23,639 bases of DNA from a virus, in IMG/VR virus record IMGVR_UViG_3300036829_000182, positions 1-23,639 of that record, one strand, 5' to 3'. Each line of letters starts with the position of its first letter. Within the stretch, counting starts at the first letter, position 1. A program made the position numbers and the translations under genes. Positions 917 to 19,714 of the stretch are shown one piece after another. The notes under the pieces are model-generated. The model saw only the letters and a program-made list of their open reading frames with translations, made no database searches and had not been told where the DNA came from.

Positions 917-1138
917 AATGACATGATTGCTCTGGCCGGTTTCGTCGCCCTGGTCGTCGGGCTGTGGTGGATCCACCCGCCCACGGCGCTCGTGATTGGC
1001 GGCACGCTGATCTTCGGCCTGGGCTGCTCGGGCGCGGCGAATGACCGCCGCCGGCGGGCGATCGCCAGGCGGACGAAACGCATCGAGCTGGCCCGCAGCC
1101 GCAACGAACCGTTGTCGTCGATCGACGAAACCGACTGA
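914..1138 (+). CDS. Small two-helix membrane protein between terminase and portal
   Basis: A 74-residue protein with two predicted membrane segments (about residues 4-20 and 22-40, split by HPP) and a strongly basic cytoplasmic-looking tail (DRRRRAIARRTKRIELARSRN). The ATG at 914 was chosen over the longer frame from 752 because the extra 54 residues would be encoded by the repeat DNA. Small membrane proteins of this type often sit between terminase and portal genes in siphoviruses, and their function is not known to me. A holin-like role is possible from topology alone, but there is no lysin beside it. No clear ribosome binding site precedes the start. Confidence 0.6.
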   Translation: MNDMIALAGFVALVVGLWWIHPPTALVIGGTLIFGLGCSGAANDRRRRAIARRTKRIELARSRNEPLSSIDETD

Positions 1139-1147
1139 AGAACAATA

Positions 1148-1211
1148 ACCACGGATTACACGGATGGCACGGATAAAAACCGTCATCAGTGCCATCCGTG
1201 AAATCCGTGGT
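1148..1211. repeat. Inverted repeat, family B (CCACGGAT words)
   Basis: Left arm 1148-1170 and right arm 1189-1211 pair at 22 of 23 positions. Words are CCACGGAT, CACGGAT and GGCACGGAT. A T-rich stretch (TCTCTTCCTTTTT) follows the right arm on the plus strand, so weak intrinsic termination before the portal gene is possible. Confidence 0.9.
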
Positions 1212-1234
1212 CTCTTCCTTTTTGTGTGATGTAA

Positions 1235-2914
1235 ATGGGCTTTCTCGGTAAATTACTGCCGCATTTTTCGAACAGCCTCGAAAACCCGCGCGTGTCGCTG
1301 AACGATCCCCGCGCCTGGGACGAATTGTTCGGCATTAACCTCTCGGACACCGGCGTGCGCATCACGCCGCAAACGGCCATCGGCTACTCGCCGCTATGGC
1401 GCGGCATCAATCTCATTTGCAACGTGCTGATGCGCTTGCCGCTGCATGTGTATAAGGCGGTGGGCCACGGCAACAGCAAAGACTTCAGCGGGGCCGATCG
1501 CTGGCTGATCGACAGCAAACATCCGGCTTACAAGCTCGTGCATTGGAAGGTGAATGACTACCTGTCGGCCGGGTTGTGGAAACAGGTCATGGGTTACCAC
1601 GCCCTGTTTCGCGGCAACGGTTACAGCGCCATCTGGCGCAATGCCCGCGGCGAGCCCCTCGAGCTCTTGCCTCTCTCGCCGACCGACACAATCCCCGTGA
1701 TCGCCGACGGCAAGTTGTGGTATGCCTCCAAAATCGAAGGCATCAAACGCAAGCTGCCGGCGGACGACGTGTTTCACCTCAAGGGCCTGTCGTATGACGG
1801 CCTGGTCGGACATGACGTGCTGACGATCATGAAGGACGAGCTGGGATTAGGTGTCGGCGCGCGCAAATACGCGAGCAAGTACTTTGCCAACGGCGCCTCG
1901 ACCGGGGGCGTGCTGATGATTCCCCGCGGCATGTCGGAGGCCGCGGCGAAGCAGCTCAAGAAAGATTGGAAGGATTACCAGGAAGGGATGGACAACGCCT
2001 TTCGGACGGCCGTCCTCGAAGACGGCGCGAAATGGGTGCCCACCACGTTCGACCCCGAGAAATCGCAACTGATCGCCGCGCGGCAATTCTCGGTCCGCGA
2101 CGTGGCCAACATCCTGGGGCTTCCGCCGCACAAGCTGGGGGACGATTCGCGACTATCCTACAATTCTCTGGAGCAAGAGAATAACGCCACGCTCGACGAC
2201 TCGTATGATCCCTGGTTGCACCGGATCGAGGAAGAAGCCGATTTGAAGCTGCTCTCGCAACAGCAGCGCGACAACGCCAGTCATTTCTTTGGTTTCGATC
2301 GCCGGCCGCTGAAACGACCGGACGCCAAGACGCAAGCGGAGATCGACGCCCAGCGCATCAACAGCGGCCGCAACACGCTCAACGAAGTGCGGGCCGAGAA
2401 CAACGAGCCGCCGGTCGACCCGGCGATCGGCGACGTGATTCGCATTCCGACGAATGTCACTCTGGGGGCGCCGAAAGTCACGGCAGAGTCGAGCAATGGG
2501 ACTGATGGGACAAATGCGACGGATAAGTCCTCTAAGTCGCCTAAGTCCCATTCGTCGAGCGTCAACAAGGCCCACCGCGCCTTGCTGGCCGATCGGCTCG
2601 ATCGGTTCGCCGCGATCGATGCTGAGCAGTGCAAGAAAGCCCGCGATCGGTATACTGATTCGCTGCCCGGCTTTGCCGGCTGGGCGGGGACCTGGTTCGG
2701 GCAACAGGAAAAAAAGGTGACCGATGCACTGTCGCCGATCTTTGCAGCCATCTTCGCCGTGTCGAATAAAAGCGGGGCCCCGGAAGCCGCAGCGGCCTTC
2801 GCCCAATCCTATTGTGCGTCCGCACGAGACGTCGCGTTAGCGACGAGCTCTGGGCCGCCACCATTCGATCTCCTGCGCGACTCGATGCTCGACCAGGTGT
2901 TCAACGACTCATAG
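1235..2914 (+). CDS. Phage portal protein, HK97 family
   Basis: Forms the dodecameric ring at one head vertex through which DNA enters and leaves. The 559-residue product carries the HK97 portal pattern: an N-terminal region with QTAIGYSPLWRGINLICN, then GNGYSAIWRNARGEPLELLPL, a helical stem region around ANILGLPPHKLGDDSRLSYNSLEQ, and a crown ending near NEPPVDPAIGDVIRIP. Length to that point (about 410 residues) matches the family. A further 145 residues follow: a Ser/Thr/Lys linker partly encoded by a repeat (2495-2552), then an Ala-rich helical tail of unknown role. The start at 1235 has no good Shine-Dalgarno sequence. The stop lies in the first bases of the next inverted repeat. Confidence 0.93.
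   Translation: MGFLGKLLPHFSNSLENPRVSLNDPRAWDELFGINLSDTGVRITPQTAIGYSPLWRGINLICNVLMRLPLHVYKAVGHGNSKDFSGADRWLIDSKHPAYKLVHWKVNDYLSAGLWKQVMGYHALFRGNGYSAIWRNARGEPLELLPLSPTDTIPVIADGKLWYASKIEGIKRKLPADDVFHLKGLSYDGLVGHDVLTIMKDELGLGVGARKYASKYFANGASTGGVLMIPRGMSEAAAKQLKKDWKDYQEGMDNAFRTAVLEDGAKWVPTTFDPEKSQLIAARQFSVRDVANILGLPPHKLGDDSRLSYNSLEQENNATLDDSYDPWLHRIEEEADLKLLSQQQRDNASHFFGFDRRPLKRPDAKTQAEIDAQRINSGRNTLNEVRAENNEPPVDPAIGDVIRIPTNVTLGAPKVTAESSNGTDGTNATDKSSKSPKSHSSSVNKAHRALLADRLDRFAAIDAEQCKKARDRYTDSLPGFAGWAGTWFGQQEKKVTDALSPIFAAIFAVSNKSGAPEAAAAFAQSYCASARDVALATSSGPPPFDLLRDSMLDQVFNDS
2495..2552. repeat. Inverted repeat, family G (TGGGAC / TAAGTC words), inside the portal gene
   Basis: AATGGGACT (2495-2503) is the exact complement of AGTCCCATT (2544-2552). 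Between them the words TGGGAC and CTAAGTC recur, giving longer imperfect pairing. It is translated in frame as a low-complexity linker (NGTDGTNATDKSSKSPKSHS). A related half element (GGGACGGATAGGACTCATA) lies at 19335-19353. Confidence 0.7.
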
Positions 2915-3017: not shown

Positions 3018-3734
3018 ATGACGAAGGCACTCACGATCCGCAATGCAGGGACCCGGCCGGAAATCTTGCTGTACGGCACGATCGGTTACGATTGGGGTGA
3101 CGACTACGTGTCGGCCAAGCAATTCGCCGATACGCTGGCCGGCCTCGGGAATGCGGCCGAGATCGGCGTACGCATCAATTCGATGGGGGGCAGCGTGGCG
3201 GATGGCTTTGCCATGTACAATGCGCTCAAAGAGAATCCCGCGAAGATCATCGTCGACGTCGTGGGCTTCGCCGTCAGTGCCGCGTCGACCGTGGCGATGG
3301 GCGGCGACGAAATCCGCATGCACGCCAACGCGGTCATGATGATTCACCCGCCGGCCAATTACGTGTGGGGGTTCGCCGACGATTTTCGGAAGCAGGCCGA
3401 AGTGCTCGACAAGCTGCAAGCGTCGATCGCCGGCGTGTATGCCAGCCGCGCGGGGAAAACGGCTGATGAATTTTCGAAGCTGATGGACGCCGAGACCTGG
3501 TTCAACGCCGAGGAGGCGTTGGCGGCGGGCCTGGCGACGGCCATTGTGCCCAACGCGGGGGCGGAGACCGAGGCGCCGGCCGAGAATGCGGAAGACGATC
3601 CGGCCATGCTCAACTTGTACCGCAACGTGCCGACCTGGGTGCGCGAGAAAATGGTCAACCGGTTCGGCCGCGAGAAATTCACAAACGTGCTTCGCCGGCG
3701 ACGGCTGGAATTGCTGGAGAAGGCGACGTCGTGA
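3018..3734 (+). CDS. Prohead protease, ClpP-like serine peptidase (S14 type)
   Basis: Likely cleaves the capsid N-terminal scaffold domain during head maturation. The 238-residue product has the ClpP fold pattern: INSMGGSVADGFAMYNAL at 54-70 (oxyanion-loop strand), nucleophile Ser87 in GFAVSAAS, His110 in MMIHPP and Asp157 in LMDAETWF. The Ser-His-Asp spacing agrees with ClpP. The C-terminal 60 residues are acidic then basic and end beyond the core fold. The start is supported by AAGGA seven bases upstream, one of few clear ribosome binding sites among the structural genes. It follows the portal, as in HK97-like phages, but the capsid gene is displaced 3.3 kb away by an opposite-strand cassette. 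Confidence 0.9.
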   Translation: MTKALTIRNAGTRPEILLYGTIGYDWGDDYVSAKQFADTLAGLGNAAEIGVRINSMGGSVADGFAMYNALKENPAKIIVDVVGFAVSAASTVAMGGDEIRMHANAVMMIHPPANYVWGFADDFRKQAEVLDKLQASIAGVYASRAGKTADEFSKLMDAETWFNAEEALAAGLATAIVPNAGAETEAPAENAEDDPAMLNLYRNVPTWVREKMVNRFGREKFTNVLRRRRLELLEKATS

Positions 3735-3822
3735 AGAGGCACGCGGCTTGACGGTCGCGCGCAACACCGGACGTCGATCGACTTTCCCCGTCATTGCGGG
3801 CCGTCATGTGGCTTGCCTCTTC
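3733..3822. repeat. Inverted repeat element, family E, copy 1
   Basis: Arms 3733-3759 and 3797-3822 (GAAGAGGCAMGC ... GCTTGCCTCTTC) enclose a loop holding the palindrome GTCGATCGAC. The element at 9191-9279 matches this one over its whole length when read on the opposite strand, including the loop (CGCGCGCAACAMCGGACG), so the two are homologous copies in inverted orientation. It overlaps the protease stop codon. Confidence 0.85.
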
Positions 3823-3827
3823 GCGAT

Positions 3828-4361
3828 TCAGTCGGGCCGCTTCTCTTTCGCGCGCTTCGCCGCGTCACGGGCCCACTGCGACAACTCCGGCAGCTCCCCC
3901 TCGATCTCCTGGCGGACCTGCCCATCCTGCTCGCGGCGATCGGCCGCGAGCGCCACCGGGGGCACGCTCTGGCCGTCGACGACGGCCTTCCCCGGCCACT
4001 GGCGCAGCCCGACGCTATGCCGCGTCGCGCCGTGCGCCAGTGTCACGATCAGCACGCGCATCCGCGAGAGGAGCGAGTCGCGCCGCTGCGGCAGATGATC
4101 GTCGTGCACGATGTAGCCCAGCGACCCATTGAGCCCGTCCAGTTTCGCAGGCGGCAATTCGACGGTGATCGTCCCGAGTTGGGCCGCCTGAATCGTTTCA
4201 TCCACATCGGGCAGCCGCCGGGCCGCCAGTGCCAGCGGATCGGCCTGCGCGTCGTGCTCATCCTCCAGTGACAGCGGCAGACAAATGCGCAGCTCGCGGC
4301 CGTTGACGTACAGGTCTTTGCGCTGGCGGTTCGACAGGCGGAAAATCACGCGCTCGCTCAT
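3828..4361 (-). CDS. Hypothetical protein, last gene of the opposite-strand cassette
   Basis: A 177-residue soluble protein with no motif I can place. It starts MSERVIFRLSNRQRKDLYVN and contains acidic, basic and Gln-rich patches, ending in a basic tail (ARDAAKRAKEKRPD). The start at 4361 rather than 4445 is decided by a strong AGGAG seven bases upstream. The sequence IFRLSNRQRKDLYVNGRELRICLPLSLEDE reads like a compact beta domain. It is the 3' gene of a minus-strand group, convergent with the protease across a family E inverted repeat. Function unknown. Confidence 0.75.
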   Translation of the reverse strand: MSERVIFRLSNRQRKDLYVNGRELRICLPLSLEDEHDAQADPLALAARRLPDVDETIQAAQLGTITVELPPAKLDGLNGSLGYIVHDDHLPQRRDSLLSRMRVLIVTLAHGATRHSVGLRQWPGKAVVDGQSVPPVALAADRREQDGQVRQEIEGELPELSQWARDAAKRAKEKRPD

Positions 4362-4568: not shown

Positions 4569-5204
4569 CTAATAAACGAACTCCATGATTCTGGCCCGGT
4601 CGCCCCCCCACACGGCCAGGGCGTAGAATTCTCCCGGCGCATCCTTCCACTCGACGACGATTGCCGGGTCGGGGTTGACCTCCTGCCATTCCTCCGGCTG
4701 GTAGAGGACGCCGACCCATTTCGCGCGGCGGCGGACTTTCTCGTCGCGCAGAATTTCACGGGCCCGACGGGGGATGACGGGCATCCCCAGCGGGACGAAG
4801 GCCCGCACTCCGTCGGCCTGGTCGTGCGGGCGATAGCGCACGTAGAGACTGCTGCAGCGGTCGCCGGCCATCGCGACATAAAATGTGCCGTCGCTGTCGC
4901 GCTTACCGTTGCCGGCGCTGATTGACACGGTCGGATCGACAATGGCCCACAGGGGCAGTCCGTCCGCGCGGTGCTCCGACAGCAGTCCCGCCAGGTCGAT
5001 CCGCCGACCGCGGCGGCGCGCGACGAGCGCGCGTTGCGACTGCCGCAGGCCGATCATCAGCTTATCGCGCGATTGCAGCTCGGCCGGCAGCCCTCCGCGG
5101 TAGCGGTCCATGATCGCCTGCCGCCGTCGCAGAATTTCTCCCGCCGCTTTTCTGGCCGCGCCGCGCTTCAGCCGCGGCTCGACACTCGTCATAATGTCCG
5201 CCAT
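4569..5204 (-). CDS. Hypothetical protein of the opposite-strand cassette
   Basis: A 211-residue protein, MADIMTSVEPRLKRGAARKA onward, with a basic helical N-terminal third (many Arg/Lys up to about residue 75) and a beta-rich C-terminal part (GTFYVAMAGDRCSSLYVRYR; WVGVLYQPEEWQEV; FYALAVWGGDRARIMEFVY). I do not recognise the family. The N-terminal part could bind nucleic acid, but this is inference from charge only. The start at 5204, not 5528, is set by AGGGAG about eight bases upstream. The 98-base gap before it holds two stable hairpins. Confidence 0.75.
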   Translation of the reverse strand: MADIMTSVEPRLKRGAARKAAGEILRRRQAIMDRYRGGLPAELQSRDKLMIGLRQSQRALVARRRGRRIDLAGLLSEHRADGLPLWAIVDPTVSISAGNGKRDSDGTFYVAMAGDRCSSLYVRYRPHDQADGVRAFVPLGMPVIPRRAREILRDEKVRRRAKWVGVLYQPEEWQEVNPDPAIVVEWKDAPGEFYALAVWGGDRARIMEFVY

Positions 5205-5302: not shown

Positions 5303-5530
5303 CTAACTCTCTTGGCGGCGCTTGAGCTCGAGCAGGGCCGCCGGTGACCCGTGCTCGATTAACAGATCGTCGCCGGCCAGGGCCAGCAGGGCATCGTATT
5401 TCTCGACGCGGCGGCAGTGGATCTTGCTCAGATTCTCCCGCTGCCGCGAGCCGGGGGCGAAGTGCCGCATGTCGTCCAGCGCCCGCCGGCATTGCGATTC
5501 CGCAAAAACTAATTGGTCGATGGTGCACAT
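5303..5530 (-). CDS. Small hypothetical protein (75 residues)
   Basis: The product MCTIDQLVFAESQCRRALDDM onward is mostly helical and ends LLALAGDDLLIEHGSPAALLELKRRQES. No known motif is visible. The start at 5530 is supported by AGGGG six bases upstream and lies just two bases from the stop of the preceding 5533-5814 gene, so the two are probably translated from one message. The longer frame from 5713 overlaps that gene and is not used. Confidence 0.7.
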   Translation of the reverse strand: MCTIDQLVFAESQCRRALDDMRHFAPGSRQRENLSKIHCRRVEKYDALLALAGDDLLIEHGSPAALLELKRRQES

Positions 5531-5532
5531 AA

Positions 5533-5814
5533 TTAACCCCTGGCGAACCATTCGCGGCCGACGGTGACAGCCAGCGTCGAGCAGTGATACCAGGTCGGCC
5601 AGCCGTAGGCGTTCGGGTATCGCACTTCGGTCTTGCCGCTCAATGTCGTCCAGTAGTACGAGCGGCCGGTCATCCGCGGGGCCGCGTCGCCGTCGACCAG
5701 GTCGACCGGGCAATTGCTGTGGGCGTTGGCGGCCTGGCGGGCGGCGCGGCGTTGGGCCAGGGTGAGAGCGCGGGGGGCGAAGAAATTGGCGAAGGTCGCG
5801 AGAATCGGGTGCAT
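5533..5814 (-). CDS. Small hypothetical protein, first gene after the cassette's main promoter
   Basis: A 93-residue protein beginning MHPILATFANFFAPRALTLA, with a short hydrophobic and basic N-terminal stretch and an aromatic C-terminal half (SYYWTTLSGK; YPNAYGWPTWYH). No family recognised. AAGGAA lies shortly before the ATG. It is the first gene downstream of the operator-controlled promoter near 6019-6046, reached after a leader of about 200 bases that contains a long-range stem (5888-6001). Confidence 0.7.
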   Translation of the reverse strand: MHPILATFANFFAPRALTLAQRRAARQAANAHSNCPVDLVDGDAAPRMTGRSYYWTTLSGKTEVRYPNAYGWPTWYHCSTLAVTVGREWFARG

Positions 5815-5887
5815 GTCATTTCCTTCAGGGCCTCGGTGTCGCCCACCGAGGGAGGCTGGCGGCGATTAGCAGCCGGAAAAATCACGA

Positions 5888-6001
5888 GCGAACCAACTCG
5901 ACCCCCGCCGAGCAACTGAGTAGCTATACCCTCGAGTCTGGCCGTCTACTGCGGGGCAGGCGAGCATCCGAATGCTGTGCGGGGGGGTCGGGTTGGTTCG
6001 T
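5888..6001 (-). other. Structured leader RNA candidate of the minus-strand cassette
   Basis: GCGAACCAACTCGACCCCCG (from 5888) pairs with CGGGGGGGTCGGGTTGGTTC (near 5980-5999), closing a loop of about 70 bases with a stem of roughly 20 pairs. Inside, AGCAT/ATGCT (5963-5976) makes a perfect 5-bp hairpin with a 4-base loop, and CTCGAG is a small palindrome. On the minus strand the closing arm is followed by GTGATTTTTC, a short U run. The structure lies between the predicted promoter (6019-6046) and the 5814 start codon, so it could be an attenuator, a terminator or a separate small RNA. Confidence 0.55.
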
Positions 6002-6018
6002 TCGCATGTCATGTCCCT

Positions 6019-6046
6019 ATTATACTTATTGTCGGATGTCCGTCAA
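6019..6046 (-). promoter_or_regulatory. Sigma-70-like promoter of the small-gene cassette
   Basis: Read on the minus strand: TTGACG (6046-6041), a 16-base spacer, then TATAAT (6024-6019). The -10 is a perfect consensus and the -35 has one mismatch. The operator palindrome 6030-6045 covers most of the -35 and the spacer, so a bound repressor would block polymerase. Transcription would start near 6012 and read toward the gene at 5814. Confidence 0.75.
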
Positions 6047-6072
6047 TATGCAATTGACGGAATTCCGACAAT
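6028..6072. promoter_or_regulatory. Double operator: two 16-bp imperfect palindromes
   Basis: TGTCGGATGTCCGTCA at 6030-6045 and TGACGGAATTCCGACA at 6055-6070 are each close to the perfect palindrome TGTCGGATATCCGACA at 6333-6348. They are also complements of each other across 6028-6047 and 6053-6072 (18 of 20). Centre spacing is 25 bases. They lie upstream of and overlapping the cassette promoter, just downstream of the helix-turn-helix gene, the likely source of the binding protein. Confidence 0.75.
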
Positions 6073-6087
6073 TTTCCAGAAATAAAT

Positions 6088-6318
6088 TCAGCCCGCATTT
6101 TCCCGCTGTTTTCGCGCTCGTTTCGGCCGGTCCGTCGTCGCCGGGCGGCCCGGCCCTGGGCGAATGAGTCCCCGCAGCCGGTCGGCGTCGGCGGGAGTGA
6201 AGATCCAGGTCGTCCCCACCTGCTCGCCGATCTGGTTGGCCCGCGCCACGCGCGAGACGGTGTCAGGCGTGCAGCCGATCGAGGCGGCGATCGAGGCGGT
6301 CGTGTGGTGCGTGCTCAT
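6088..6318 (-). CDS. Small helix-turn-helix regulator (MerR / excisionase-like fold)
   Basis: A 76-residue DNA-binding protein. Residues 7-27 (TASIAASIGCTPDTVSRVARA) form a helix-turn-helix, and residues 30-41 (IGEQVGTTWIFT) match the wing strand of MerR/excisionase-type domains. The C-terminus is basic (RPKRARKQRE). The start at 6318 is preferred to 6387 because it begins at the domain, while the upstream stretch is promoter and operator DNA. No Shine-Dalgarno is seen, and the predicted transcript start is only a few bases upstream, suggesting a leaderless message. The 16-bp palindromes at its own promoter and the neighbouring one suggest autoregulation and control of the cassette. Confidence 0.78.
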   Translation of the reverse strand: MSTHHTTASIAASIGCTPDTVSRVARANQIGEQVGTTWIFTPADADRLRGLIRPGPGRPATTDRPKRARKQRENAG

Positions 6319-6324
6319 GCGCTC

Positions 6325-6356
6325 TATATATATGTCGGATATCCGACAATTGTCAA
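6325..6356 (-). promoter_or_regulatory. Promoter of the regulator gene with operator in the spacer
   Basis: Minus strand: TTGACA (6356-6351, perfect -35), an 18-base spacer, then TATATA (6332-6327). The perfect 16-bp palindrome TGTCGGATATCCGACA (6333-6348) fills the spacer, a typical autorepressor site. The expected transcription start is near 6320, next to the ATG at 6318. Confidence 0.78.
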
Positions 6357-6382: not shown

Positions 6383-6462
6383 CCCACGGATGGCTAGGCA
6401 ATCCCACGGATTTTTCTGCGTCTGTTTTTCTTTATCCGTGGGATTGCCTAGCCATCCGTGGG
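6383..6462. repeat. Inverted repeat, family B, perfect 29-bp arms
   Basis: Left arm 6383-6411 and right arm 6434-6462 are exact complements, with CCCACGGAT twice in each and GGCTAGGCAA between. On the plus strand TTTTCTCTTTTT follows. The 32 bases 6431-6462 are identical to 15265-15296. It separates the regulator from the 6494-6724 gene. Confidence 0.95.
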
Positions 6463-6781: not shown

Positions 6782-6805
6782 GTGACGTCACGTCTAGTCG
6801 GATTG
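6782..6805 (+). repeat. 24-base dispersed direct repeat, copy 1
   Basis: GTGACGTCACGTCTA, one variable base, then TCGGATTG. It matches 20580-20603 at 23 of 24 positions. The first ten bases are a perfect palindrome (GTGACGTCAC). The second copy lies 23 bases after the integrase stop codon. Confidence 0.8.
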
Positions 6806-6981
6806 AACAGTGTCATCTGACGCCACGCGGCCAAACCTAGTTGCGGCTGCGTCTGTGTGAGTTGACCAGATGCAGGCTTTCAACGCCCGCCTTGTCCGGC
6901 GTTCGAACCGCGCACCGAAAAAACAATACGTCACACCCCGTATTCGTGCCCGCAGGTCCGCCGGACTTTTCTTCGATTTGC

Positions 6982-7056
6982 CAGTTGTCAGTAGTCCGTT
7001 GTCAGTTGTCGTCGCCGGCAGCTCGTCACAACTGACCACTGACAACTGACGACTGA
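6982..7056. repeat. Inverted repeat, family C (GTCAGTTGTC words)
   Basis: Left part 6982-7010 (CAGTTGTCAGTAGTC, GTTGTCAGTTGTC) pairs with right part 7027-7056 (CAACTGACCACTGAC, AACTGACGACTGAC). It ends 16 bases before the capsid start codon. The same family lies at 10553-10620. Confidence 0.88.
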
Positions 7057-7072
7057 CCTCCCGAAAGAACAC

Positions 7073-8533
7073 ATGACCGCAAAAGAACTGCGCGCCAAGC
7101 GCGCCGGCGTCGTTGAAAATTCCCGCAAGCTGCTCGACACGGTCGAGAAAAACGGCAAGGGTTTCACGGCCGAAGACGAAACGGCCTGGAAGAATTTCAA
7201 TGCCGAGATCGACGCCCTGGGCGCGTCGATCGAACGGGCCGACTTGCAGGAGAAGCGCGAGGCGCAAGTCGCCAACGAAATCGCCAACCTGCCCCCCGGC
7301 ATGCCGAAGCCGACCGGCAGCGCGGTGCCCCCGGCCGGCAAGGAAGAAGACACCGGCGTCATCCCCATGAACGAGGCCCGCGCCCTGGCGGTGCAGGGCT
7401 GGTTCATGCGCAATTCGTCCGATGATGACGTCAAGGAACAATTCACCGAACGGCACGCCCGCGCGCAGAAGCAGACGGGCATCGGACGCAACAGCAAAAT
7501 GCTGAATGTGCCGTCGCCCGTCATGGGCGCCAATCCCGCCGCGCCGGAAGGCCCGCTGCAAAGCATCTCGAATTACAACCGGATCCGGCAGCAGTTGCGC
7601 AAGCGGCTGGCCTGGGACGGCGCGCACGGGAATTACGTCAACGTCAATCCGCTCACCACTCAGCAGCTCGCCGGCGGCGGGGCCCTGATCCCGGAAGGTT
7701 TTTCGACGTCGTTCGAAACGGCCCTCCTGGCCTACGGCTACATGCTGCAAGTCGCCGACGTGATGACCACGCCCGGCGCGAACCCGCTCCCCTGGCCGAC
7801 GGCGAATGACACGGGCAACAAGGGCCGGCGGCTGAATCAGAATGCGGCCGTGAACAACACCGGCGCGAACATCGCTTACCCGACATTCGGCGCGGTCATG
7901 TTCTACGCTTACAAATACACCAGCGACGAAATCCTGGTGCCGTTCGAATTGATCCGCGACAACGCGGTCGGCCTGGTCGAATGGCTGGGCGAGGCCCTCG
8001 GGATCCGCATTGGCCGCGCCGAAAACGACGACTGGACGAACGGCACCGGCAGCGATCAGCCCAAGGGGATCGTCCCCGCGAGCACGCTCGGAAAAACGGC
8101 CGCGGGCGCCACGGCGATCAAGTTCGACGAAGTGATCGACCTGGAACACAGCGTCGACCCGGCCTATCGCGGTTCGCCCGGCGTGGGCTACATGTGCCAC
8201 GACGGCATCGTGCAATACCTGCGCAAGCTGAAAGACGGCGAAGGCCGGTACCTGTGGCAGATGAGCGCCAACAGCGGCGAGCCCGATCGGCTCAACAACC
8301 GGCCCCTGACGCGCAACCAGTCGATGCAGGCGACCGTCGCCACCGGCACGAAGACTCTGCTCTTCGGCGATCTCAGCAAATACAAGATCCGCCGCGTCGG
8401 CAGTCTCCGCATGTACCGCCTGGTCGAGCGCTACCGCGACAACGATCAGGATGCCTTCCTGGGCTTCGAAGAAGCGGACGGCAATTTGATCGACGCGGGA
8501 ACGCATCCGGTCAAGTACCTGATGCAGGCTTAG
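7073..8533 (+). CDS. Major capsid protein, HK97 fold
   Basis: Builds the icosahedral head. The 486-residue precursor has an N-terminal helical delta (scaffold) domain of about 70 residues (ELRAKRAGVVENSRKLLDTV; ETAWKNFNAEIDALGASIER), then a Pro/Gly-rich and mixed linker to about residue 190. The mature HK97 fold follows, starting near GGGALIPEGFSTSFETALLA (201-220), with MTTPGANPLPWPTANDTG and YKYTSDEILVPFELIRD as family hallmarks. SDQPKGIVPAST and YRDNDQDAFLGFEEADG are typical late segments. The upstream protease probably removes the delta domain. Its start follows a family C inverted repeat with only a weak purine stretch (GAAAGAA) as ribosome binding site. Confidence 0.95.
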   Translation: MTAKELRAKRAGVVENSRKLLDTVEKNGKGFTAEDETAWKNFNAEIDALGASIERADLQEKREAQVANEIANLPPGMPKPTGSAVPPAGKEEDTGVIPMNEARALAVQGWFMRNSSDDDVKEQFTERHARAQKQTGIGRNSKMLNVPSPVMGANPAAPEGPLQSISNYNRIRQQLRKRLAWDGAHGNYVNVNPLTTQQLAGGGALIPEGFSTSFETALLAYGYMLQVADVMTTPGANPLPWPTANDTGNKGRRLNQNAAVNNTGANIAYPTFGAVMFYAYKYTSDEILVPFELIRDNAVGLVEWLGEALGIRIGRAENDDWTNGTGSDQPKGIVPASTLGKTAAGATAIKFDEVIDLEHSVDPAYRGSPGVGYMCHDGIVQYLRKLKDGEGRYLWQMSANSGEPDRLNNRPLTRNQSMQATVATGTKTLLFGDLSKYKIRRVGSLRMYRLVERYRDNDQDAFLGFEEADGNLIDAGTHPVKYLMQA

Positions 8534-9166: not shown

Positions 9167-9190
9167 CGAGCGAACAGTAGGCGACGGCGC

Positions 9191-9279
9191 GAAGAGGCAA
9201 GCCACATGACGGCCTCACGCGCAAAGACAGTCGATCGACGTCCGTTGTTGCGCGCGACCGTCATGTCGCTTGCCTCTTC
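9191..9279. repeat. Inverted repeat element, family E, copy 2 (reverse orientation)
   Basis: Arms 9191-9212 and 9258-9279 (GAAGAGGCAAGC... / ...GCTTGCCTCTTC). Read on the minus strand it aligns along its whole length with 3733-3822, including the loop with GTCGATCGAC. A third fragment, GGCTTGCCTCTTCACG, lies at 19492-19507. Confidence 0.85.
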
Positions 9280-9308
9280 ACGATCCCGTTTTTGAAAAGC
9301 GCTTCCTT

Positions 9309-9800: not shown

Positions 9801-9806
9801 CGAATT

Positions 9807-9879
9807 GTGTTTGGTGTTTTGTGTTTAGTGTTTGACGCGCCGCCGGAAATCTAAACACCAAACACCAAACACCAAACAC
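9807..9879. repeat. Inverted repeat, family D (AAACACC words)
   Basis: Left arm 9807-9833 (GTGTTTGGTG TTTTGTGTTT AGTGTTT) pairs with right arm 9853-9879 made of AAACACC tandem heptamers. The right arm ends three bases before the connector ATG, leaving no room for an SD sequence. Confidence 0.92.
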
Positions 9880-9882
9880 ACC

Positions 9883-12476: not shown

Positions 12477-12578
12477 GACGGACGGAAAATCCCACGGATA
12501 AAAGCGGGCCACGGATTTCCCGGCGTCGGTCCTTTCTTTTTATCCGTGGGCCTGCTGCATCCGTGGGAATCGTCTGTC
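12477..12578. repeat. Inverted repeat, family B (CCCACGGAT words), imperfect
   Basis: Left part 12477-12515 and right part 12542-12578 share GACGGACG / CGTCTGTC, CCCACGGAT and GGGCCACGGAT with several mismatches. TTTTTT follows the right arm directly on the plus strand, making this the best intrinsic-terminator candidate of the set, located after the tail tube gene. Confidence 0.85.
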
Positions 12579-12600: not shown

Positions 12601-13038
12601 ATGAAATGTACATTGATCGTCGACAGTCTCGGCCCCAATCCTGCATTCGATCCGCCGCAGCGGGATCACTTTCCCGACGACGAAGCCTATCACGACGCGC
12701 TGGCGCTGTACGAGGTGCCCCCCGACATCATGGTACCGGCGGGGACGGTGCTCAGCGGGCCGTTCGCCTGGCTGCATTGTCTCCCCGATCAGTCGGGCTG
12801 GGGACGTGACGCCCAGGGCAAGCCGGTCCGCGTGCGGCCTGGCGTCGTGCGCTCCGTGCCGCTCGATGCTCCCTGCCAGGTCAAGGTGGCCAAAGAAGTC
12901 CAAGCCCTGGCCGCCAAGCGCAAGGTGTTGCCGGCGGTCGTCATGGCCGAAATCGACGCCGCGATCAAGAAATCGCAGGACGCCCAGGCGGCGAACAGCA
13001 AGCCCGCGCCGGCGACGGCCGTGAAGCCGGCGGCGTGA
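12601..13038 (+). CDS. Hypothetical tail-region protein
   Basis: A 145-residue protein, MKCTLIVDSLGPNPAFDPPQ onward. The first 90 residues hold a compact acidic domain (DEAYHDALALYEVPPDIMVP; GPFAWLHCLPDQSGWGRDAQ). The last 50 are helical, rich in Ala and Lys, ending in an Ala/Pro tail. I do not recognise the family. Its place between tail tube and chaperone genes suggests a tail role. No ribosome binding site is apparent, and it is flanked by a family B repeat upstream and a family A repeat downstream. Confidence 0.7.
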   Translation: MKCTLIVDSLGPNPAFDPPQRDHFPDDEAYHDALALYEVPPDIMVPAGTVLSGPFAWLHCLPDQSGWGRDAQGKPVRVRPGVVRSVPLDAPCQVKVAKEVQALAAKRKVLPAVVMAEIDAAIKKSQDAQAANSKPAPATAVKPAA

Positions 13039-13054
13039 AACTGAAACAAGCAGA

Positions 13055-13138
13055 AGGCAGAAAAATCTGGGGCAGAAAAATAGCCCCGTTTGATTCGGCA
13101 GTCTCTTGGTCATTTTTCTGCCCCCCATTTTTCTGCCT
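13055..13138. repeat. Inverted repeat, family A (GCAGAAAAAT words)
   Basis: Arms 13055-13081 and 13112-13138 (27 bases each) are nearly perfect complements, each with two GCAGAAAAAT words. It is the third family A element and resembles 2913-2991 closely. Confidence 0.93.
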
Positions 13139-13881: not shown

Positions 13882-13948
13882 TCCTTTGCGTCCTTTGCGC
13901 CTTTGCGTGAGGAAATGTTTTCACGCAAAGGCGCAAAGCACGCAAAGA
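13882..13948. repeat. Inverted repeat, family F (GCGCAAAG words)
   Basis: Left part 13882-13910 (CCTTTGCGTCCTTTGCGCC, TTTGCGTGA) pairs with 13921-13948 (TCACGCAAAGGCGCAAAGC, ACGCAAAGA) around a 10-base loop. It separates the chaperone and tape measure genes and ends 15 bases before the tape measure ATG. Confidence 0.92.
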
Positions 13949-13962
13949 CGAGAAAGAAATAA

Positions 13963-15231
13963 ATGTCCGTTGGCGGCGGCGACCTGGTAACCGTGATGAC
14001 GCTCGATGATTTCGAGTTCGTGACGGGGTTGCGCCGATCGGCCAACGAGACATCGAAATTCGCCGGCCAGGTGAACGGCGCGGGAAGCAGCTTGTCCGGC
14101 GGGTTCGGCCGGGCGATCGGCCAGATGGGTTTCGCCGCGCAGGATTTTTCCAGCGTGATGAGCATGGGGGGCAAGAACGCCCTCGGCCGCGCGTTGATGG
14201 GGACAATGAACAACGTCCAGATGCTGGGGGCGGCGTTCGGGCCCGCCGGCATGGCCATCACGTCCGTCGCCGGTGCGCTGGGCTCGATCTTCATCCCCAA
14301 ACTGTTCGAGGCCGAGGCGGCCAGCGACGCGCTGGCCAAAAAGATCCAGACCACGGCGACCGAGGCCGAGCGGGCGTCCGACAGCTTCGAACGCATGGCC
14401 AGGTTCAGCGCGAAAATCGCGGCGATCAAAACGGCGTCGGGCGCCGAGTCGATGGCCACTGGTTTGTCGACCGACATCAAGGTCACCGAGCACCGGGCCA
14501 AGATGCTGTCGCGGGCGGCCGATCAGAGCGGCAACGCGTTGTTGTCGTCGGGCAATTATTTTCTCCCCTCTTACGCCAAGGATTATTCCGTCGCCGATCA
14601 GTTGCGCAACGTCAAAAACAAAAAGGGGGATTCGGACAAAGACCCCAACCTGATCGAGGCCAAGAAGCTGGCGGACGATCTGGAGAAGGCGGAACGCGAG
14701 GCGGCCAAGCTGCGGGCCGAACGCAGCCAGGTTGGTGACGCGCAAAAACGGCTCACCGAAGAAGAGGCCATCACGAAAGAGATGGAAGATCAGCGCGACC
14801 TGGCCAAAGACATGATGGCCGAGAACCGCAAGGAAGAGCGCGAGCTGAAGCAGGCGCGCGAGAAGAAGGAACGGGACGCCGAGCGGTTCGCCGAGCATGT
14901 GCGGCGCGACAATATGACGCCGTTCGAAAAAGCGCAAGAGCAGTTGGCGCAGATCAACGACGCCAGCGGCCTGGATGACGACGCCAAGGCCAAAGCCAAG
15001 GCCCGGATCATCGACGATTTCGCCAAGCAGAAAGGGACCAAAGATCCCGAGAACAACGTGGCGCTCAAAGGCTCGGCCGAGGCGGCGAGCGCGATTCGCG
15101 ACGCGATCACGTCGCAGGCGAAAAGCGAAGACAGCGAGCAGGTCAAGCTGCTCAAGCGGATCGCCGACGCGGCGGAGGCGAAGAAGCCCGACGCGCCCGT
15201 GAAGATCGAGGTCGTCGGTATCGAAGACTGA
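13963..15231 (+). CDS. Tail length tape measure protein (short)
   Basis: A 422-residue protein that sets tail length. The N-terminal part (LDDFEFVTGLRRSANETSKF AGQVNGAG) is the usual tape measure start. A Gly/Ala/Met-rich hydrophobic stretch follows at about 78-115 (LMGTMNNVQMLGAAFGPAGM, AITSVAGALGSIF). Long charged helices with coiled-coil character run from about 215 to 330 (AKKLADDLEKAEREAAKLRA; RKEERELKQAREKKERDAER). It is small for a siphovirus. With the rule of about 0.15 nm per residue the tail would be roughly 60 nm. Position after the chaperone frames strongly supports the call. Confidence 0.85.
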   Translation: MSVGGGDLVTVMTLDDFEFVTGLRRSANETSKFAGQVNGAGSSLSGGFGRAIGQMGFAAQDFSSVMSMGGKNALGRALMGTMNNVQMLGAAFGPAGMAITSVAGALGSIFIPKLFEAEAASDALAKKIQTTATEAERASDSFERMARFSAKIAAIKTASGAESMATGLSTDIKVTEHRAKMLSRAADQSGNALLSSGNYFLPSYAKDYSVADQLRNVKNKKGDSDKDPNLIEAKKLADDLEKAEREAAKLRAERSQVGDAQKRLTEEEAITKEMEDQRDLAKDMMAENRKEERELKQAREKKERDAERFAEHVRRDNMTPFEKAQEQLAQINDASGLDDDAKAKAKARIIDDFAKQKGTKDPENNVALKGSAEAASAIRDAITSQAKSEDSEQVKLLKRIADAAEAKKPDAPVKIEVVGIED

Positions 15232-15244
15232 CAAAAAAGAAAAC

Positions 15245-15297
15245 TCCCACGGATGCTGTCGTCTTTTATCCGTGGGATTGCCTAGCCATCCGTGGGA
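15245..15297. repeat. Inverted repeat, family B, shortened copy
   Basis: TCCCACGGATG (15245-15255) pairs with CATCCGTGGGA (15287-15297). The right part, 15265-15296, is identical over 32 bases to 6431-6462. The left arm lacks the GGCTAGGCAA segment, so it looks like a deleted derivative of the same element. Confidence 0.88.
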
Positions 15298-15307
15298 ATT
15301 CTCCGTC

Positions 15308-16252
15308 ATGTCCGTTGTCAGTGTGCGCGAAATTCCCGATGGAAGGGGCGGCGACAGCGAGGGCATTACCAAGACTCGCAGCGACCGCATCTTTCGCGTC
15401 GTGTGCAACAGCACGAGCGACAACCAATTCACGATCCTGCAGGCGGGTCTCTTGCCCGCGCAGTACAGCTTCTATCCGGGGAACATCTTCCTCACCTGCC
15501 GCACGATGGACATCCGCCAGGAGAAGGGCGGGTTCATCTGGATCGCCAAGGCGGGTTACTCGAGCGAGCCGATCCCGCAGGAGAAAATCGACCGGGAGCA
15601 ATACCCGAACCCGGCCGATCGGCCGTGCCGCGTCAGCGCGCGGGCCGATCAGTATCGCAAGATCGTCACGTATGCGGCCCTGGTCGCGCCCGAAGACGGC
15701 GTGATCAGCGTCGACGGATCGGACGACCTGGCGGACACGGGCGTGGCCGGGGACCTGGGGGCCCTGCTCAACTCGGCCGGCGACGAATTCGACGACGTGA
15801 CGGAAGCCGACGACTCCCGCCAGGTCATCATCCTGCGGAAGAATTTTTCCGAGCCGCCGACCGATCTCTTCATGCTGGAGAATCGGGTCAATGATGACGT
15901 CGTGACGATCTGGCGGAACGACTTTCCGACGCGCACGCTCAAGTGCAAAGGGACGACGATTGGCGAGATGCAAACCGAAAACGGGTACGACTATTACCCG
16001 TGGGAATGCGAGTTGACGTACAACCAGGACGGCTGGGATTTCGAAATCCTCGACAAGGGCCTGTACTACCTCGACAGCGGGACGCACACGCGGATTAAAG
16101 ACAGCAAGGGCGTCGACGTCTCAGTCTCCCAACTGCTCGACGGCTCGGGGGGCATTCTCGCCAGCCCGACCAGTGCGACGGCCGTGTATCGGGTGTATCG
16201 CTATTACAAGGACGGCGACTTTTCGCAGTTGCCGCTGGAACCGCAGCAATAA
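15308..16252 (+). CDS. Tail protein downstream of tape measure (function not recognised)
   Basis: A 314-residue, beta-rich acidic protein: MSVVSVREIPDGRGGDSEGI, then FRVVCNSTSDNQFTILQAGL and YSFYPGNIFLTCRTMDIRQE. A central part has DGVISVDGSDDLADTGVAGD, and the C-terminal part holds YYPWECELTYNQDGWDFEIL DKGLYYL. The genome position right after the tape measure gene is that of distal tail or baseplate hub proteins, but I see no motif that decides between them. The start at 15308 follows the family B repeat; the longer frame from 15272 would encode repeat DNA. Confidence 0.75.
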   Translation: MSVVSVREIPDGRGGDSEGITKTRSDRIFRVVCNSTSDNQFTILQAGLLPAQYSFYPGNIFLTCRTMDIRQEKGGFIWIAKAGYSSEPIPQEKIDREQYPNPADRPCRVSARADQYRKIVTYAALVAPEDGVISVDGSDDLADTGVAGDLGALLNSAGDEFDDVTEADDSRQVIILRKNFSEPPTDLFMLENRVNDDVVTIWRNDFPTRTLKCKGTTIGEMQTENGYDYYPWECELTYNQDGWDFEILDKGLYYLDSGTHTRIKDSKGVDVSVSQLLDGSGGILASPTSATAVYRVYRYYKDGDFSQLPLEPQQ

Positions 16253-16268
16253 GTGTTTGGTACTGACA

Positions 16269-16643
16269 ATGGCCAACGAAATTACGCTCACGATCAACAA
16301 CGCCCTGAAGAACGGCGCGCTGGCCGACAGCTACAATCCGGGGCGGATCCAGATCACTCAGGCGGTGCAACTGCTGTTCGCCGACGTCGTGTCGCTCGTC
16401 GCCGCGACGGATACGGTCATCACGTTCGGCCACATTGTGACGGCCGGCCTGGTGCACCTGATCAATCTCGATCCCACGAATTACGTGGAATGGGGCCCCG
16501 AGTCGGCCGGTGCCCTGGTGCCGGTCGGCAAGCTCATGCCGGCCGACGCGCCGGCCATCTTTCGCTTTGATCCGGGGGCCACGCTGCGGATGAAGGCGCA
16601 CACCGGCGCCTGCGACGTGCTGGTCATGTGCTGGAACAATTGA
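16269..16643 (+). CDS. Small virion protein, minor tail type
   Basis: A 124-residue beta protein: MANEITLTINNALKNGALAD, QITQAVQLLFADVVSLVAAT, LVHLINLDPTNYVEWGPESA, GKLMPADAPAIFRFDPGATL RMKA. The pattern NLDPTNYVEWG...GKLMPAD...FRFDPGATL RMKA is frequent in small phage tail-tip or minor structural proteins of beta-sandwich type. A fragment of the family D repeat (GTGTTTGGTACT at 16253-16264) precedes its start, and no ribosome binding site is seen. Specific role unknown. Confidence 0.75.
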   Translation: MANEITLTINNALKNGALADSYNPGRIQITQAVQLLFADVVSLVAATDTVITFGHIVTAGLVHLINLDPTNYVEWGPESAGALVPVGKLMPADAPAIFRFDPGATLRMKAHTGACDVLVMCWNN

Positions 16644-16644
16644 A

Positions 16645-16710
16645 TTGGTGTTTGGTGTTTCGTGTTTAGTGTTTGGTACTAAACACCAAACACCAAACAC
16701 CAAACACCAT
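16645..16710. repeat. Inverted repeat, family D (AAACACC words)
   Basis: Left arm 16645-16677 (TTGGTGTTTGGTGTTTCGTG ... TTTGGT) pairs with right arm 16681-16709 of tandem AAACACC heptamers, leaving a 3-base loop. The right arm ends six bases before the next ATG. Close to the family D element at 9807-9879. Confidence 0.92.
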
Positions 16711-16715
16711 TGCCA

Positions 16716-17039
16716 ATGAAAACCTTCACCGACAAAGCCGTCGCGCGCATCCAGCGCGCCGTGCAAAAAAGCGAAAGCGATCGCCCGCAGGCCCCGCAGA
16801 GCTGGGGCCAGCGAATTTTGCAGGCGCTCCCCATCCGCCTGGGTAAGACGACGACGTCGCACACCAAGGGCTCGACGCACGACGTCAACGTGTATTGGGG
16901 GACGACGAAGGGCTCGGAGACCTGGGACAGCGTCGAAACCATTTCGGTGTATAACCGGTTTGCCAATGTGGCCAGCGGCAAATGGGTGTTTTGCATTTGG
17001 CTCTTGGGCGGCTGGGAAGTGTTCGTGGCCGAATGCTAA
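16716..17039 (+). CDS. Hypothetical protein, first gene of an overlapping five-gene chain
   Basis: A 107-residue protein. Residues 1-45 are basic and helical (FTDKAVARIQRAVQKSESDR), and the rest is beta-rich and aromatic (VNVYWGTTKGSETWDSVETI, KWVFCIWLLGGWEVFVAEC). I do not recognise it. It opens a run of five genes that all overlap their neighbour by a few bases, so they are probably translated as one unit. The ATG at 16716 is used rather than the TTG at 16710, which lies in the repeat arm. Confidence 0.65.
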   Translation: MKTFTDKAVARIQRAVQKSESDRPQAPQSWGQRILQALPIRLGKTTTSHTKGSTHDVNVYWGTTKGSETWDSVETISVYNRFANVASGKWVFCIWLLGGWEVFVAEC

Positions 17040-19318: not shown

Positions 19319-19714
19319 GCCACGCCCGCAGGATGGGACGGATAGGACTCATACGACGGATGCGTGCCGTCGTTCGCGCGGCGGCCGCCGCGAACCGGTA
19401 ATGACACGCAGTCAGCGCGCTTAGCCCGGCCCTCCCCGCCAGCTCGGTCCACCTGGTCGCGGCGATCGCCGGCACGACCGGCCCCTCGTCGGGCTTGCCT
19501 CTTCACGTTTTCCCGTTTTTCGCCCCTTCCCGATCGGGAACTGCAGTTTTTTCCCTCCGGACCGGCTTGCCGAGCTGGTAACGCTCGTTTTGACCCTCCG
19601 CGGGTCAAAATCGACGCACCAGGATGCCCCAGGAACGACGCACGGGCGTTGGTCCGACCCACGGGTCATCCCTTCCGACAGCTTTTCCTGCGCCCACGTG
19701 GGCGAGGCCCCGCC
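19319..19714. other. 396-base gap upstream of the integrase, rich in palindromes
   Basis: I see no convincing gene. It holds a half family G element (19335-19353), a family E arm fragment (GGCTTGCCTCTTCACG at 19492-19507), the perfect 14-base palindrome TTCCCGATCGGGAA (19527-19540), the hairpin TTTTGACCC-TCCGC-GGGTCAAAA (19588-19610), and the perfect palindrome CGCCCACGTGGGCG (19691-19704), which ends 10 bases before the integrase ATG. These could be integrase or regulator binding sites, or part of an attachment region. Confidence 0.55.

Follow-up and report, generated by a model that had tools for sequence, protein, structure and literature searches.

Paired operators, autoregulation and a leaderless repressor mRNA are combined in phage lambda. 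The locus analysed here resembles phage CI/Cro systems in its paired palindromic operator-like sites placed on promoters, in the autoregulation predicted for its small regulator and in the leaderless regulator mRNA that would result. On the other hand, the fold of the regulator is different, a single regulator with no opposing partner is seen and both promoters point in the same direction. Proteins with a MerR-like winged helix provide the second comparison. According to PMC5859096, BldC binds head to tail on direct repeats, RacA binds DNA as a symmetric dimer, and TnrA and GlnR, which carry a MerR-like winged helix without coiled coil, act as homodimers on palindromic sites; the same source states that an arginine of BldC (Arg30) and of RacA reads a YpG step, and that in MerR-type activation the operator lies in a promoter spacer of 19-20 bp. 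For RdfS, repression of its own promoter is reported in PMC11963761.

The window, that is the whole stretch of 23,639 bases of viral DNA analysed here, is linear and probably a fragment. Its gene content includes terminase, portal, ClpP-type protease, capsid, connector and tail genes and an integrase gene, whose presence identifies the source as a temperate tailed phage. The structural genes and the integrase are on the plus strand, and a block of minus-strand ORFs is found between the protease gene (end 3734) and the capsid gene (start 7073). Within this block, positions 6088-6318 of the minus strand encode P0001, a candidate winged helix-turn-helix regulator of 76 residues which starts at an ATG at 6318 and has a basic tail from about residue 53; its GC3 of 0.84 is similar to that of the neighbouring genes. 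The window as a whole gave no match in the 'phages' collection. NCBIfam gave no match either, and PADLOC gave only two weak ones (E 0.03-0.04). No Rfam family reached its gathering score in the window, a weak miRNA match (E 0.94) being discarded as noise, and a scan of genome_contigs with the portal alignment found no host. As set out below, the data are best explained by negative autoregulation of P0001 together with repression of an adjacent gene cassette by the same protein, a reading to which we assign a probability of roughly 0.6.

Operator-like palindromes and promoter-like sites

Three related 16-bp palindromes, putative operators to which no strand is assigned, surround the P0001 gene. 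The perfect one, TGTCGGATATCCGACA (O3, 6333-6348), fills 16 of the 18 spacer bases of a promoter-like site TTGACA-18-TATATA in front of the regulator gene (minus strand, 6327-6356; -35 at 6356-6351, -10 at 6332-6327). The two others are found beyond the end of the gene, at a promoter-like site TTGACG-16-TATAAT that matches 11 of 12 consensus positions and would serve the cassette (minus strand, 6019-6046; -35 at 6046-6041, -10 at 6024-6019). O1 (6030-6045, 2 mismatches to the perfect copy) overlaps the -35 of this promoter and the greater part of its spacer, and O2 (6055-6070, 3 mismatches) lies directly upstream of the -35. Self-complementarity amounts to 8/8 pairs at 6333, 7/8 at 6055 and 6/8 at 6030. 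When extended, O1 (6028-6047) and O2 (6053-6072) both fit the 20-bp form ATTGWCGGANNTCCGWCAAT, and the pair makes up an inverted repeat with 20-nt arms (90%), 5 nt between the arms and a centre spacing of 25 bp, in agreement with the larger repeat proposed in the preliminary description.

The letters and coordinates of the three matched palindromes given there proved right as well, and the set is not expected by chance, since exactly three sites with at most 3 mismatches to the 16-mer exist in the window against a shuffle mean of 0.08, and none of 100 shuffles reaches three. Palindromes of 16 bp alone are about as common here as chance predicts (25 16-mers with at least 7/8 palindromic pairs versus 18.8 simulated, and 2 perfect ones versus 1.0). 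Only two of these 25, the members of this set at 6055 and 6333, have the two other copies no more than 400 bp away, while 1.7% of 2000 random 16-mers have at least two further copies within this distance, a background of local repeats which we think stems from the many hairpins of the record. The unusual feature is therefore the family of three palindromes inside 320 bp, not palindromes as such. The half-site TTGWCGGA occurs five times in the 23.6-kb record, each time inside one of the operators; the shorter word TGWCGGA is also found at 19674 and 20964, as isolated single copies.

The two promoters were also found as previously described, and they are the only sigma-70-like sites on either strand of the record with at least 10/12 matches and a -35 of at least 5/6. 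Each coincides with an operator, and both point the same way with the regulator gene between them. The promoters alone are not significant, as about 1.0 such site is expected (chance mean 1.03) and at least two turn up in 26% of simulations, and their coincidence with operators is partly built in because the -35 of the cassette promoter is itself part of O1. A promoter scanner whose -10 pattern has to end in T lists the cassette promoter only.

Other occurrences of the operator word bear on the identity of the binding protein. Neither operator 16-mer was found in the literature that best matched a search on operator words. In viral_contigs the exact 16-mer occurs at 11 loci (raw count), ten of which have no further near-copy with at most 3 mismatches. 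The remaining one, L011, carries three copies at 1318-1407, with 0, 2 and 3 mismatches, directly upstream of an HTH_3 repressor gene. The copies of L011 are situated between this gene (979-1296, minus strand) and a divergently oriented gene whose product has an HTH_36 domain. Since the same word thus stands beside an unrelated HTH_3 gene, it does not point to the P0001 family, and it warns that different folds may use one operator word. The 20-bp operator pattern was found at four other viral loci, none of them beside a P0001-like gene as judged by eye from the ORF list, and the degenerate pair pattern at one locus, L018, where two TGTCGGAATTCCGACA copies 24 bp apart lie downstream of a large gene. 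These two copies in L018 (8370-8409) are exact and are also upstream of small ORFs.

The L011 arrangement speaks for assigning the operators to a different regulator, either a main immunity repressor (e.g. of the XRE type) encoded outside the fragment or a host regulator, that would keep both P0001 and the cassette silent in the lysogen. As the record is a linear fragment, a main repressor beyond its ends could be the binder, and 16-bp palindromes are a good fit for dimeric XRE or Cro proteins. Such an assignment nevertheless seems unlikely, if worth serious consideration, given that the sites flank P0001 exactly and are found nowhere else in the 23.6 kb, that the model of P0001 is itself that of a DNA-binding domain and that neither HTH_3 (PF01381) nor HTH_17 (PF12728) domains were detected elsewhere in the record. 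The regulator-operator module previously proposed fits the arrangement and the winged-helix model of P0001, whereas binding by this protein is a prediction.

Predicted fold of P0001 and mode of binding

In the single-sequence AlphaFold model of P0001, residues 1-50 have block-mean pLDDT values of 79-90 and follow the order strand-helix-helix-strand-strand-helix, the two consecutive strands forming the wing. Past about residue 52 the model has low confidence and no regular structure. This is the order of the MerR/Xis/BldC-type domain of about 50 residues (strand-helix-helix-wing-helix), and P0001 would thus be a winged helix of this type with a disordered basic tail. No HTH_3-type (XRE/CI) domain is found in P0001, and with only 76 residues it has none of the C-terminal coiled coil and effector domain of classical MerR proteins.

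The PDB matches to the model are RacA (the best), pSK1 Par, BldC, MerR-type regulators, Pukovnik Xis and RdfS. The DNA-binding domain of RacA (Bacillus subtilis, PDB 5i44) is matched with a Foldseek E of 0.04, a probability of 1.00, a Z of 6.8 and 21-26% identity in structural alignments. No PDB match reaches a Foldseek E of 0.001 and all Z scores are below 8, which is modest, but the fold families matched by the model appear consistent with each other in spite of this. BLASTP gave no alignment between P0001 and RacA, which differs in being a chromosome-anchoring protein and is not known as a regulator of phage promoters. The one comparison with Pfam HTH_17 gave no match at E ≤ 1, and other HTH models matched P0001 weakly, below their cut-offs. 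Pfl6 Cro was tried as a relative and rejected (phmmer E 1.1, not significant). Homologues of P0001 were found neither in peptide-pattern scans of viral_contigs and genome_contigs, which are weak evidence of absence because such scans find close relatives only, nor by tblastn in 'phages' and 'plasmids', nor in 8 viral records.

An alignment places a common TVxR in the recognition helices of P0001, RacA and BldC, with Arg23 of P0001 aligned to Arg30 of BldC and to the equivalent arginine of RacA. The half-site contains TpG and CpG steps. Palindrome binding by P0001 is possible but not automatic, since of its structural relatives BldC binds head to tail and RacA as a symmetric dimer. BldC of Streptomyces is like P0001 in being a small stand-alone winged helix of the MerR type that acts on promoters, but its sites are direct repeats, AATTXXXX(C), bound head to tail, whereas the repeats at O1-O3 are inverted and the 25-bp direct spacing of O1 and O2 is unlike the 9-bp repeats of BldC. 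In a hand alignment of the BldC interface, Ile14, Val24 and Val35 of P0001 stand for Phe21, Trp31 and Leu43, so that the hydrophobic character is kept, while the Glu16-Arg22 pair and His46 of BldC are replaced by Ser, Gly and Thr and Lys26 is also lacking. On these comparisons the sequence leans tentatively towards symmetric binding.

Several points count against P0001 as the binder of palindromes. Its structural kin BldC, Xis and RdfS bind head to tail, and no dimerisation element is visible in the protein. The failure to find homologues, the negative HTH_17 and BLASTP comparisons, the PDB matches short of a Foldseek E of 0.001 and the four loci that have the 20-bp pattern but no P0001-like gene also weigh against the preferred reading. 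TnrA and GlnR, which like P0001 have the MerR-like winged helix without coiled coil, dimerise via N-terminal regions, an extension that P0001 does not have, and their C-terminal regions contact glutamine synthetase. The suggestion of cooperative dimers at O1 and O2 found no support, as 25 bp corresponds to about 2.4 turns (at 10.5 bp per turn) and simple cooperation on the same face of the helix is not favoured. Likewise, nothing beyond sequence symmetry speaks for the perfect site at the regulator's own promoter as the one bound most strongly, as had been predicted.

The sequence family nearest to P0001, PHROG 1840, is an excisionase family (E 1.4e-4). Together with the fold matches to Pukovnik Xis (Z 4.0) and RdfS (Z 3.8) and the presence of an integrase gene, this would suit a role of P0001 as excisionase, i.e. 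as recombination directionality factor, the palindromes being autoregulatory or incidental. RdfS offers a precedent of own-promoter repression (PMC11963761). However, the P0001 gene is 13 kb from the integrase and inside the block of head genes, no operator-like site (at most 3 mismatches) or cluster is found near the integrase, and the head-to-tail binding of the structural kin does not involve palindromes. We therefore regard an excisionase function as very unlikely.

Predicted repression of the regulator gene and the cassette

Under the preferred reading of autoregulation plus cassette repression, P0001 would be a small DNA-binding repressor that occupies ATTGWCGGANNTCCGWCAAT-like palindromes, probably with two subunits arranged symmetrically. 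At O3 it would lie over the spacer of the regulator promoter and, by negative feedback, block production of its own mRNA. Judged from the position of the -10 only, transcription of the regulator is predicted to start at about 6320, so that with the ATG at 6318 this mRNA would have no leader or almost none; no clear ribosome-binding site was found in the bases upstream of this ATG. At O1 and O2, P0001 would cover the -35, the spacer and the upstream flank of the second promoter, thereby repressing a leader RNA and a minus-strand accessory cassette of four genes between the protease and capsid genes. The spacers of 18 and 16 bp, near the normal 17, suit steric repression rather than MerR-type activation, for which spacers of 19-20 bp would be expected.

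Least probable of the readings considered is that P0001 is an activator or dual regulator which, from O2 (at about -50, upstream of the -35), aids RNA polymerase as MerR-fold proteins often do: the MerR-type fold and the operators in promoter spacers, the classical MerR position (PMC5859096), would fit, but O1 overlaps the -35, and with spacers of 16 and 18 bp close to the optimum and -35 and -10 boxes near consensus no activator is needed.

The cassette promoter is followed by a leader (minus strand, 5875-6013) with a hairpin of 22-nt arms (5885-5906 and 5983-6004) and then TGATTTTT, terminator- or attenuator-like in appearance, and about 200 nt separate the promoter from the first cassette ATG at 5814. 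The fold of the leader has a z of about -3; its end is listed as terminator-like, although such sites occur there at chance frequency (3 found, 3.0 expected). Directly downstream of the promoter, this leader could form a structured RNA about 140 nt long. Transcription from the cassette promoter may therefore produce a short RNA and reach the cassette genes by read-through. The leader belongs to no Rfam family and has no match in 'phages'.

The first cassette gene (93 aa, 5533-5814) has a relative in L035 and L036, with 62% protein identity over residues 36-87, and no match in 'phages'. Near this relative there is no operator in either record, every match to the degenerate 16-mer having 3 mismatches or more, and no similar regulator was seen among the listed ORFs. 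It is followed on the same minus strand by genes of 75 aa (5303-5530, an ORF only), 211 aa (4569-5204, no family match in profile searches run partly with a longer ORF form) and, as the last one, 177 aa (3828-4361, no convincing family when searched with a longer ORF form). For the cassette protein P0002 no relative was found, and its single-sequence model is uninformative (mean pLDDT 39).

In the related contigs L015 and L016/L020 (the latter two being one contig), the structural genes have about 68-79% DNA identity to those of the window, but the similarity breaks off at 3564 of the window and starts again at 6830. In both of the two related phages where this interval is visible, a nuclease gene is found instead of the cassette (in L016 at 6782-7645, plus strand, PHROG 14168, E 6.8e-21, with the same gene in L015), and none of these contigs has the operators. 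The cassette with its regulator is therefore a lineage-specific insert or replacement.

The regulatory architecture proposed is an ordinary one, its new details being the leaderless regulator mRNA and the terminator-like hairpin in the cassette leader. A fuller version, in which a stand-alone MerR-fold repressor of 76 residues reads palindromes in the manner of RacA and, with the leader of about 140 nt, gates a lineage-specific cassette in the head module against the direction of the late genes, is put forward tentatively and is on balance doubtful. If true, it would be a compact and testable case of a MerR-fold protein without dimerisation domain on palindromic operators, contrasting with BldC and Xis, and would supply a ready-made set of promoter, operator and repressor from a phage group whose close public relatives are few.

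Two observations concern the sequence around the cassette and the record at large. The segment 6830-6973, a stretch of some 145 bp that precedes the capsid gene and has no assigned gene, is 83% identical in L015 and L016, which exceeds the identity of the capsid gene itself to these contigs (78%); no tRNA was found in it. The record also contains twelve long hairpins with arms of 26-41 nt that are 76-100% complementary, apparently mostly at gene boundaries (785-848, 1148-1211, 3729-3826, 6383-6462, 6982-7057, 9188-9282, 9806-9880, 12490-12568, 13055-13138, 13884-13947, 15227-15315 and 16637-16718). Many of their arms are built of short direct repeats, in families of the CACGGAT, GGCAGAAMAAT, TTTGGTGTTT and GAAGAGGC types. 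Since the relative L020 has only one such hairpin in 21 kb (at 12884-12963), these elements seem to have multiplied in the lineage of the present phage.
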